DNA of 42,569 bases from Acidobacteriota bacterium (lineage in GTDB: Bacteria > Acidobacteriota > Thermoanaerobaculia > UBA5066). Below the pieces are notes generated by a model. The model was not told the DNA's origin. It searched no databases and was given only the letters and a program-made list of their open reading frames with translations. This document shows, in pieces, positions 11,179-28,941 of the stretch. Where the stretch lies: assembly GCA_029567505.1 (NCBI GenBank), contig JAKPXO010000003.1, positions 1 to 42,569 on the forward strand, in the 5' to 3' direction. The translations under genes and the position numbers were made by a program. Position 1 is the first letter of the stretch, and every line of letters begins with the position of its first letter.

Positions 11179-11556
11179 ATGAGGAGGCAGAGCATGTCGA
11201 CCCGGAAACGGAATCGCGGTGAAGGGGCCTTCGGGGCGATCGTCGGGATCGCGATCGTCGTCGTCGTCGGCATCGCGCTCTTCAAGATCGTGCCGCTGCA
11301 CTACGCCGGCAACAAAGTGAAGGACGCGATGAGCGAGCAGGCGAACTTCGCGGGGGTCAAGCCGCTCGACAAGATCCAGTACGAGATCTTCGTCATCGCC
11401 CAGGAGGCCGGGACTCCCCTCACGATCCAGGACATCAAGATCCGCAGGCACGGGGGCGACGTCATCGTCGAGGCGAAGTACATGCAGAAGACCTCCGTCC
11501 TCGGCTACCAGTACACCTACGCTTTCGACCACACCGTCCAGAAGCCGGTCTTCTGA
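11179..11556 (+). CDS. Single-span membrane protein of unknown function after lepB
   Basis: This 125-residue protein has a basic N-terminus (RRQSMSTRKRNRGEG), one membrane span (AIVGIAIVVVVGIALFKIVPL) and an outward domain of about 80 residues rich in short beta strands (GGDVIVEAKYMQKTSVLGYQYTYAFDH). GGGAGG six bases before the ATG supports the start; an in-frame ATG at 11194 is the alternative. It is 18 bases after lepB. In size, topology and place it resembles DUF4845 proteins, which follow lepB in many proteobacteria, but the sequence similarity is only an impression. It is followed directly by a repeat-type hairpin. Confidence 0.7.
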   Translation: MRRQSMSTRKRNRGEGAFGAIVGIAIVVVVGIALFKIVPLHYAGNKVKDAMSEQANFAGVKPLDKIQYEIFVIAQEAGTPLTIQDIKIRRHGGDVIVEAKYMQKTSVLGYQYTYAFDHTVQKPVF

Positions 11557-11562
11557 AGTGAA

Positions 11563-11605
11563 CGCGGGGGTTTCTCGGTCCCCCCGCGCCCCCCACCGGG
11601 GGCGA
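11563..11605 (+). repeat. GC-rich palindromic repeat, copy 1
   Basis: The unit starts six bases after the stop at 11556. CGCGGGGG at 11563-11570, a loop reading TTTCTCGGT, and CCCCCCGCG at 11580-11588 form a stem, followed by CCCCCCACCGG and more Gs. The same unit occurs at 11773, 28905 and, inverted and diverged, at 15629-15667. It may double as a terminator, though it lacks a T run. Confidence 0.75.
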
Positions 11606-11650
11606 GTGAACGCGGGGCGGGGGCCCTGCTACGCCGATGACGCGGATGCG

Positions 11651-11680
11651 AGGCGGGGGGTCCGGGGGGCGTGCGAACGC
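11651..11680 (-). repeat. GC-rich palindromic repeat, inverted diverged copy
   Basis: On the plus strand GGCGGGGGGTCCGGGGGG is identical over 18 bases to the element at 15633-15650 in the pyrKD gap. Read on the minus strand it follows the same order as copy 1. Confidence 0.6.
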
Positions 11681-11711
11681 GGACGCACGCGGAATGCGAA
11701 CCGCGCGAAAT

Positions 11712-11766
11712 CGGGTGGGGGGCCGGGGGGCGCGCGAAGCTCAGCCCCCCGTGTGGCGCCCCCCGG
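11712..11766. repeat. Paired G-rich and C-rich repeat remnants
   Basis: GGGTGGGGGGCCGGGGGGCG at about 11713-11732 is followed by C-rich blocks (GCCCCCC, then GCGCCCCCCGGCC) that can fold back on it. It looks like an inverted copy and a forward remnant side by side. The boundaries are approximate. Confidence 0.45.
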
Positions 11767-11772
11767 CCAGCC

Positions 11773-11800
11773 TCGATCCCCCCGCGCCCCCCACCGGGAG
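11773..11800 (+). repeat. GC-rich palindromic repeat, forward partial copy
   Basis: TCGATCCCCCCGCG followed by CCCCCCACCGG matches the right-hand part of the unit at 28917-28941 without a mismatch. The left stem arm is missing. The 288-base gap 11557-11844 between two genes contains these repeats and no credible coding sequence. Confidence 0.7.
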
Positions 11801-11844
11801 CGGAAGACCGCGGCGCGGGGGCTCGTCCGCGCGCCGGGCCGGGG

Positions 11845-12264
11845 ATGACGCGGGAGAGGAGCCGCCCGGGGCCGGAGGCGGACGCCGCTGGCGTCCGCCT
11901 CGACGTCTTCCTCGACGTCGCGTGCATCTTCCCGACCCGCTCGCAGGCCAAGGAGGCGTGCGAGGGGGGGAAGGTCGATCTGAATGGGTCGGCGGCGAAG
12001 CCGCACCGGACGGTGAAGCCGGGGGACACGCTCCAGGTCACCGTCCCCGGGCGACGGCGGACGCTCGTCGTGAGGGCTGTCGCCGAACGGCACGTCCCGA
12101 AGGCCGAAGCGCGAACGCTCTACGAGGAGACGACCCCCGAGCTCACGTCGGAGCAGCTCGAGGCGCGGCGGCTGGAAAAGCTCCTCGCGCCTCGCCGCGA
12201 CGCCGGGGCCGGCCGGCTCTCCCGGCGGGAGCGGGAAGAACGCGGCCGGCTCCGCGGCTACTGA
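11845..12264 (+). CDS. S4-domain RNA-binding protein (Hsp15-like)
   Basis: A 139-residue protein with an S4 fold at residues about 17-65: VRLDVFLDVACIFPTRSQAKEACEGG, then KVDLNGSAAKPHRTVKPGDTLQV, the standard S4 RNA-binding pattern. The C-terminus is a long, charged, Arg/Glu-rich helix ending RRERGRLRGY-like. This layout matches Hsp15/HslR and YlmH-related proteins that bind the 50S subunit carrying a stranded peptidyl-tRNA. The ATG at 11845 gives a sensible N-terminus, with GCCGGGG as a poor ribosome binding site. Upstream open frame runs through the repeat block and was excluded. Confidence 0.85.
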   Translation: MTRERSRPGPEADAAGVRLDVFLDVACIFPTRSQAKEACEGGKVDLNGSAAKPHRTVKPGDTLQVTVPGRRRTLVVRAVAERHVPKAEARTLYEETTPELTSEQLEARRLEKLLAPRRDAGAGRLSRREREERGRLRGY

Positions 12265-14682: not shown

Positions 14683-15619
14683 ACGCCTTCTCGGGGCGCG
14701 GGCGCGTCTTCAGCGTGCCGGTCAGGTCGGAGACCCTCTCCACGCCGTGCCGCTCGCACCAGCGCGCGAGGTCGCGGACGAGCCGGCCGGAGATGCCCGG
14801 GTCGCGGAAGCTGGCCGTTCCGACCTGGACGGCATTCGCCCCCGCGATGAGGAACTCGACGACGTGCTCGGCCGTCTCGATCCCGCCGATGCCGAAGATC
14901 GGGACGTGAGGTAGGGCCCGTCGCACCTCCCAGACCATCCGGACGGCGACCGGCCGGATCGCGGGCCCGGAGAGACCGCCCGTGGTGAAGCCGATCTTCG
15001 GCTCGCGCGTCTCGATGTCGATCGAGAGGCCGACGAGCGTGTTGATGAGCGAAAGGACGTCGGCCCCGCCGTCGACCGCCGCCCGGGCGGCGGCAACGAC
15101 GTCGGTGACGTTCGGCGAGAGCTTCACGACGAGCGGGAGGCGCGTCGCGGGGCGGACCGCGGCGACGAGCGCGCCGAGGGCCGACGGGTCGTTCCCGAAG
15201 ACCATCCCCCCCTTGACGACGTTCGGGCAGGAGACGTTCAGCTCGACGGCGGCTACCCGTGGGTCGTCGCCGATCCGCTCGACGACGGCGCGGTACTCCG
15301 CCTCCGTGTCGCCCCAGACGTTCGCGATGACGGTCGCTCCCGCCTCGTGGAGCTTCGGGAGCTTCTCGCCGAGGAACTCCTCGACGCCGACGTTCTGGAG
15401 GCCGATTGCGTTCAGCATCCCGGCGTCTGTCTCGCAGATGCGCGGCGGCGGGTTGCCGAGGCAGGGCCGGAGCGAGAGGCCCTTGACGGAGATCGCCCCG
15501 AGCGACGCGAGGTCGACGAACTCCGCGAACTCCAGCCCGTACCCGAACGTTCCGGACGCCGTCGCGATCGGGTTCTTCAGCAGGAGTCGGCCGAGGTGGA
15601 CGGTGAGGTCGACGCTCAT
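14675..15619 (-). CDS. pyrD: Dihydroorotate dehydrogenase, class 1B
   Basis: A 314-residue FMN enzyme oxidising dihydroorotate to orotate. It is class 1B: the catalytic base is Cys131 in [13 protein letters not shown], and the electron-transfer partner pyrK lies just upstream. FMN-binding segments include [13 protein letters not shown] at the N-terminus and [27 protein letters not shown] near the C-terminus. The ATG at 15619 overlaps the TGA of a truncated duplicate of its own first 21 codons (15616-15735), giving an ATGA junction. The first 64 bases or so of the gene region are duplicated 116 bases upstream. Confidence 0.96.
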
Positions 15620-15621
15620 CG
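15558..15621. repeat. 64-base direct repeat, copy within pyrD start
   Basis: Identical base for base to 15674-15737, offset 116. It covers the first 20-21 codons of pyrD and one base beyond the ATG. Confidence 0.95.
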
Positions 15622-15735
15622 GCCACGGCTCCGGCGGGGGGTCCGGGGGGGCCGCGAAACCCCCGGGAAGAGAGCCGTCGCGATCGGGTTCTTCAGCAGG
15701 AGTCGGCCGAGGTGGACGGTGAGGTCGACGCTCAT
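15616..15735 (-). pseudogene. Truncated pyrD 5' duplicate, 39 codons
   Basis: On the minus strand an ATG at 15735, with GAGAGGAG 6-7 bases upstream, opens a frame with the same first 21 residues as PyrD ([20 protein letters not shown] plus Ala). It then runs into the GC-rich element ([18 protein letters not shown]) and stops at TGA overlapping the real pyrD ATG. It probably represents the original start of pyrD, cut off by the insertion. It is likely still translated, as it retains the good ribosome binding site, and may deliver ribosomes to pyrD by coupling. Confidence 0.8.
15622..15673 (-). repeat. 52-base GC-rich palindromic element between the duplicated pyrD ends
   Basis: Read on the minus strand, CCCGGGGG, then TTTCGCGGC, a run of seven Cs, CGGA and CCCCCCGCCGG follow the same order as the repeat unit at 11563-11605 (CGCGGGGG, TTTCTCGGT, CCCCCCGCG, CCCCCCACCGG). 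It is flanked on both sides by the 64-base direct repeat. Confidence 0.8.
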
Positions 15736-15737
15736 CG
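15674..15737. repeat. 64-base direct repeat, upstream copy in the pyrK-pyrD gap
   Basis: Second copy of the pyrD 5' end. On the minus strand it keeps the GAGAGGAGCG ribosome binding site region just upstream, in the original context after pyrK. Confidence 0.95.
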
Positions 15738-28904: not shown

Positions 28905-28941
28905 CGCGGGGGGTTCTCGATCCCCCCGCGCCCCCCACCGG
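28905..28941 (+). repeat. GC-rich palindromic repeat, intact copy
   Basis: It starts 7 bases after the stop at 28898. CGCGGGGGG and CCCCCCGCG make a perfect 9-pair stem around the loop TTCTCGAT, followed by CCCCCCACCGG. The same unit follows the gene ending at 11556, also 6-7 bases after the stop. Confidence 0.85.

Follow-up and report, generated by a model that had tools for sequence, protein, structure and literature searches.

A family of short G/C-rich hairpin repeats at gene edges in Acidobacteriota, with duplicated flanks at insertions

Introduction

The target duplications made by DDE transposons are not known to vary in length, and the palindromic elements of Rickettsia are palindromes that lie in frame inside reading frames. 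REP/BIME elements, which number in the hundreds, and REPINs are short dispersed palindromes found at gene ends and in clusters, in both orientations and often near stop codons. REP super-families GTAG and CGTC have been described (PMC3733652), E. coli REPs no more than 15 nt from a stop codon down-regulate translation (PMC12306157), and repeats of the triplex type have been linked to local instability in the same species (PMC4666352).

The hairpin repeats described here come from a genome of 5.14 Mb in 532 contigs, in a setting with a GC fraction of about 0.7 to 0.8, and were found in the window, by which we mean the whole 42,569-nt stretch of DNA analysed (contig C446). Compared with the Rickettsia elements, they offer one clear in-gene case, and most copies lie at gene edges. 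They share with REP/BIME elements and REPINs the traits listed above, but they number only in the tens, have flank duplications of 13-64 nt, lack a GTAG or CGTC foot in the consensus and have no repeat-bearing Y1 transposase locus (n = 15). The fixed-length target duplication by which MITEs are recognised is likewise absent, the lengths running from 13 to 64 nt. With the TM-ECO (PIT) repeats of Enterobacteria they have in common a hairpin arm and, at a distance of three bases, another G- (or C-) run, an intergenic location and a tie to local change between strains (PMC4666352). The order of parts differs, being G-N3-G-loop-C here and C-loop-G-N3-G in TM-ECO; runs of five or six bases replace runs of nine and do not fit the nine-base-stem TM-ECO consensus; and the loops are conserved and 9-22 nt long, as against 1-6 nt in the triplex search of PMC4666352. 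The host here is an acidobacterium, and the likeness to a triplex is one of sequence layout. Mitochondrial GC clusters and hairpin elements (PMC4478555) are also tiny, gene-free, mobile GC-rich hairpins with rapid turnover and merged copies, although host and sequence are unrelated and the yeast clusters are flanked by AG or ACT rather than by 13-64 nt. The literature compared also includes PMC3116915. No description of this hairpin family was found in a literature search judged mostly from titles and abstract openings, and Rfam at the gathering score gave no match within the window.

Results

Two forms of a hairpin repeat

Read with the C-runs to the right, the repeats are built from a G-run of 5-6 bases, a loop, C6, GNN and a second C-run of 5-6 bases. 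Form A has the loop TTTCTCGAT, with variants TTTCTCGGT, TTTCGCGAT and TTTCCCGAT, and TGTTCCC precedes its G-run; the consensus, TGTTCCCGGGGGTTTCTCGATCCCCCCGGACCCCCC, was built from 27 of 35 cores, the 8 dropped being six tandem or repeated copies and two whose loop is longer. In form B the loops are more extended, as in CTGAGCTTCGCGCG. The layout of the repeats is that of intrastrand triplex motifs, with three complementary runs of which two are joined by a short linker (C6-GNN-C5-6). The form-A stem extends outwards: the second outer pair is C-G in 19 sequences, G-C in 6 and unpaired in 2 (n = 27), and the outermost is unpaired in 20 of the 27. Covariation was seen in the stem (8 double-changed cells, compared with 2.9 in shuffles), on which the five inner pairs are uninformative because they are invariant. 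RNA folding energy was unexceptional, with z from -2.2 to +0.9. Longer composites at four loci (L298, L301, L290 and L005) resemble one element nested within the loop of another.

Copies were counted by pattern searches and blastn. The first-pass annotation had proposed a dispersed repeat family, and a genome-wide search for GGGGGTCCGGGGGGC with at most one mismatch gave 32 matches, compared with 3 for the reversed pattern; blastn against the same genome gave 49 matches at E≤10, 27 at E<0.05 and 14 at E<1e-4, including the query itself. By both the blastn and the reversed-pattern counts, the genome thus holds many further copies rather than few or none. The common pattern GGGGN3-22CCCCCCGNNCCCCC had 52 + 13 matches in the same genome, a count inflated by overlaps, versus 2 for its reverse. 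Within the window, the bare motif CCCCCCGCG occurred at chance level (6 found, 6.0 expected) and the hairpin CGCGGGGG-N3-16-CCCCCGCG well above it (2 found, 0.02 expected). We conclude that the repeat, a palindrome of 20-40 nt in many dispersed copies as in REP/BIME elements, is a real family of short G/C-rich hairpins.

The two forms differ in distribution, form A being found in four genera of the family and form B being concentrated in the window's genus. The exact form-B core GGGGGTCCGGGGGGC occurs 14, 21, 16 and 4 times in four genomes of that genus, with no reversed match, and 0-5 times in ten other genomes of the family; form B has multiplied recently in the window's genus. Form A, with the same loop, was found in genomes of other genera (G004, G007 and G009) by the common pattern, whose counts are inflated by overlaps. 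In a sample of 396 genomes of the phylum, the exact form-A 20-mer GGGGTTTCTCGATCCCCCCG matched the genome of origin only; since G004, G007 and G009, all carriers of form A, were outside the sample, this result speaks for rarity and not absence. In G007, one of the ten other family genomes, CGGGGGGCCTGGGGG, the control pattern in reverse, gives 18 exact matches, which suggests that another G-run repeat family is present in that genus.

Copies and duplications in the window

The first-pass annotation had counted at least four copies, whether full or partial and of either orientation, in the 288-base gap at 11557-11844; we located four, on the + and - strands, together with the following features.

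11557-11569, + strand: 13-nt direct repeat AGTGAACGCGGGG, left copy
11558-11848, + strand: open frame bridging the gap, GTG start, 96 aa, its TGA overlapping the next gene's ATG
11563-11597, + strand: full form-A hairpin repeat, 6 nt past a stop codon
11574-11624, + strand: 51-nt direct duplication, first copy, 44/51 identical to the second
11605-11617, + strand: 13-nt direct repeat AGTGAACGCGGGG, right copy
about 11655-11676, - strand: partial form-B copy, reading GGGGGGTCCGGGGGGC on the + strand
11714-11768, - strand: full form-B hairpin repeat
11772-11797, + strand: form-A 3' half
11772-11822, + strand: 51-nt direct duplication, second copy, 44/51 identical to the first

PyrD matches place the genome in the Thermoanaerobaculia of the Acidobacteriota; the closest named records by PyrD are L076 (RA.bin138) and L077 (Go_UH_bin_178), at 97% identity each, and the ten next-closest stand at 77-85%. 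The orthologous gap in L076 and L077 is short and without a full repeat; the 13-nt repeat is single in L076 and replaced by GATGAACGCGGGG in L077. Conversely, L076 carries repeats of this kind over ∼240 nt at a place where they are lacking in the window. The 51-nt duplication, which the first-pass annotation had not mentioned, brackets the form-B part of the gap. The gene after the gap has an S4 domain; the 96-aa frame had no Pfam match and may be a chance product of high GC. In a more distant relative (L086), the orthologous gap holds another hairpin repeat, GGGGGAACCCGG...GGGTTCCCCCGCGCC, shortly past the same stop codon.

The further copies annotated at 28905-28941 (+) and 15622-15673 (-) are both real, and the second lies within a duplicated gene start.

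15558-15621, - strand: real start of pyrD (dihydroorotate dehydrogenase), one 64-nt duplicate
15616-15735, - strand: 39-aa open frame that begins at the truncated pyrD start, crosses the element and ends with a stop overlapping the real ATG
15622-15673, - strand: element inserted upstream of pyrD, with a copy of the gene start on either side
15674-15737, - strand: truncated second copy of the pyrD start, the other 64-nt duplicate
28905-28941, + strand: form-A copy, 6 nt past the stop of an OmpA/NMT1-domain gene

The element at 15622-15673 exactly fills the space between the 64-nt copies, an arrangement that had gone unrecorded. It is also present in L076 and L077, with a shorter gene-start repeat, and missing, as judged by eye, from ten more distant loci (L078-L087); the leader frame through the element, with its stop on the real ATG, is the same in the window, L076 and L077. 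In the window the two copies agree at all 64 nt, so the duplication has since been renewed or homogenised. Among ungapped 51-nt pairs 60-300 nt apart in the window, identity of at least 42/51 was found only at 11572 (+198) and 15546 (+116), and both of these close duplications bracket hairpin elements. The site at 28905-28941 is empty in a relative (L211).

Placement at gene ends

Two copies had been described as beginning 6-7 bases past a stop codon, and indeed the stops end at 11556 and 28898 and the stems begin at 11563 and 28905. Orientation and distance to stop codons were counted for 103 cores from six genomes (35 form A and 68 form B), in loci chosen for holding a repeat, with tandem copies counted singly and with a gene end defined as the stop of a frame of at least 100 codons (open frames, not annotation). 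In form A, 18 of 35 cores began no more than 15 nt from a gene end on their own strand and 2 of 35 from one on the opposite strand, compared with 3.7% of random positions in the same loci. The spacing was 3-14 nt past the stop in half of the cores. Form B showed no orientation preference (9/68 same strand versus 11/68 opposite; 20/136 flanks). The extragenic, stop-proximal placement typical of REP/BIME elements is therefore clear in form A, which is kept right behind stop codons on the coding strand, and weaker in form B.

Gain, loss and flank duplication

We compared 17 sites of the window's genome with their orthologues in three genomes of the genus and in L076/L077; C100 was set aside since its far flank gave no alignment. 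At least one relative was without the element at 13 of the 17 sites, and at C365:6757, C142 and C25 some copy was present in every alignable relative. Unit number also varies: C232 has two units in the window's genome, one in L181 and none in L186 and L188, and the gyrB-gyrA junction (identified from sequence, not by profile) has three, with one in L208 and none in L194. Elements have thus been both gained and lost recently between close relatives.

When the 130 nt on the two sides of each core were aligned directly, a score of at least 36 marked a flank duplication at 13 of the 57 genus sites, which represent 12 of the 46 distinct positions, and at 3 of 2,090 controls placed in those loci; only scores of at least 36 were counted because controls reach 101 of 2,090 (4.8%) at 26. 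The other 34 of the 46 positions had no duplication at the threshold. In G009, 4 of 20 sites had flank duplications, three of them apparently tandem arrays. Insertions are accordingly often accompanied by duplicated flanks, which measure 13 to 64 nt in the clear flank-element-flank cases and are cleanest, with empty sites in relatives, at C171 (39 nt), C28 (27 nt) and C333:3408 (41 nt). In most of the clear cases the inserted piece has its left edge 6-11 nt ahead of the G-run, and microhomology at the junctions, judged by eye, is inconsistent. An insertion within a gene that carries an N_methyl pilin signal is in frame and repeats RGFTLI, and L214 and L216 are empty at this site.

Two further arrangements were observed. 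The start of what is apparently the same gene has a flank-element-flank structure, with related loops, in L259 (G009) and in C232/L181, and the flanks in each resemble their own genome's gene start; this case either is old and has been homogenised or marks a hot spot. In L062 (contig C168 of the window's genome) and L296 (G011), the 3' half of a putative tRNA gene stands in tandem next to an apparently intact tRNA, with a hairpin of the family shape after each half.

Y1 transposases

The first-pass annotation had seen no TnpA(REP) transposase in the window, and a Y1 profile search (PF01797, the sole profile searched) gave none on its contig. Fifteen Y1 loci were found elsewhere (3 in the window's genome, 5 in the genus, 2 in G010, 1 in G009 and 4 in G001), and none had the repeat in its fetched flanks, which extended up to about 1.4 kb and were shorter at contig ends; mobilisation by a TnpA(REP) protein, as had been suggested, is not borne out. 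G007 (83% complete) and G004 (87% complete) contain form A and gave no PF01797 match at E≤0.01. No unpaired GTAG or CGTC foot is present in the 27-sequence form-A consensus. Y1 genes of the family (L043, L219, L220, L222, L278 and others) are bounded by inverted repeats of their own, such as GGTGCCAGGCGTGA and GGGGTCAGGTCT.

Discussion

The family is of a known general kind, and its insertion signature is unusual and well documented. The likeness to REP/BIME elements holds as a description (short palindromes, copy number, gene ends, orientations and clusters), and the mobiliser suggested along with it finds no support. We infer that replication template switching is likelier than a transposase as the means of spread, and we give an even chance to the explanation that a REP-like hairpin family has spread in this way, by insertion that duplicates a variable stretch of the target. 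New copies would enter beside or inside gene edges, often with duplication of a target stretch of 13 to 64 nt, so that the gene would stay whole. Replication would be stalled by the hairpin or by a triplex of the G-rich strand, and the new strand would switch by way of the G/C runs to another repeat copy, copy about 50 nt and return upstream of its point of departure. Such a path would give rise to flank-element-flank structures, to tandem units, to element loss and to duplications that differ in length. The uneven length of the duplications, the tandem and nested copies and the turnover agree with replication that runs into trouble at a strong hairpin and switches template between copies, as does the lack, in 15 loci, of any Y1 transposase linked to the repeat. 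Several observations count against this explanation: the 34 of 46 positions without a duplication at the threshold, loops longer than those of the triplex search in PMC4666352, the inconsistent junction microhomology, the unexceptional RNA folding and, for TM-ECO, an in vivo footprint that did not support a stable triplex (PMC4666352). The form-A loop is also too conserved for a mere by-product, which makes some recognition or function likely. It is possible, though on the doubtful side, that the repeats make up a new class of tiny mobile DNA, in which gene-free G/C hairpins without a transposase of their own would copy themselves into gene edges, each insertion duplicating a long and variable target and leaving the gene intact.

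The rather fixed left edge argues for some recognition, and an enzyme is therefore a serious rival to template switching. Acting in trans, it would insert the element as a small non-autonomous transposon, with widely spaced nicks leaving true target-site duplications; the clean flank-element-flank cases with empty sites (C171, C28 and C333:3408) and the existence of two forms that differ in the loop agree with this, but the spread of duplication lengths from 13 to 64 nt and the absence of any element-bounded gene among the loci read (PF01797 being the only profile searched) leave it rather unlikely in our estimate. If the enzyme were the Y1 REP transposase (TnpA-REP/RAYT) and the repeats ordinary REP/BIME elements, then their size, palindromy, gene-end placement and two-orientation clusters would be explained and Y1 genes are indeed present in the genome, yet the 15 Y1 loci without a nearby repeat, several with other inverted repeats, the two form-A genomes lacking a Y1 match and a consensus without the GTAG or CGTC foot make this quite improbable. 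Moreover, insertion with flank duplications of 13-64 nt is not described in the passages on REP elements consulted, those of PMC3733652 and PMC12306157 among them.

That form A is chiefly a functional mRNA 3' element, its mobility being secondary, is compatible with template switching and, judged from sequence features, falls only a little short of an even chance; it would slow terminating ribosomes, block 3' exonucleases or help to end transcription. Strict orientation and spacing behind stops in half of the cores, the conserved loop and stem covariation point in this direction, as does the effect of stop-proximal E. coli REPs on translation (PMC12306157), whereas tens of copies per genome are too few for a general terminator, there is no T-run, the folds are unexceptional and form B lacks an orientation preference. 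That copies were selected because they encode inserted peptide segments or leader peptides, in the manner of palindromic elements inserted in frame, appears improbable: the in-frame insertion in the pilin-like gene, the 96-aa frame across the gap and the frames that bridge gyrB-gyrA and, in three species, the region upstream of pyrD could be read in this way, but at 73% GC long frames often arise by chance, and none crosses the copy at 28905. The view that a GC-rich genome simply produces G/C runs by chance, which would account for the frequency of CCCCCCGCG alone, has a negligible claim, being ruled out by the reversed-pattern controls and at odds with a loop conserved across genera and with matching long flanks.

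The spread of REP-like and triplex-like repeats can be followed here in unusual detail: closely related genomes retain empty sites, solitary copies, tandem copies and flank duplications that match, and for this reason insertion can be read at base level and the mechanisms proposed for it can be tested.
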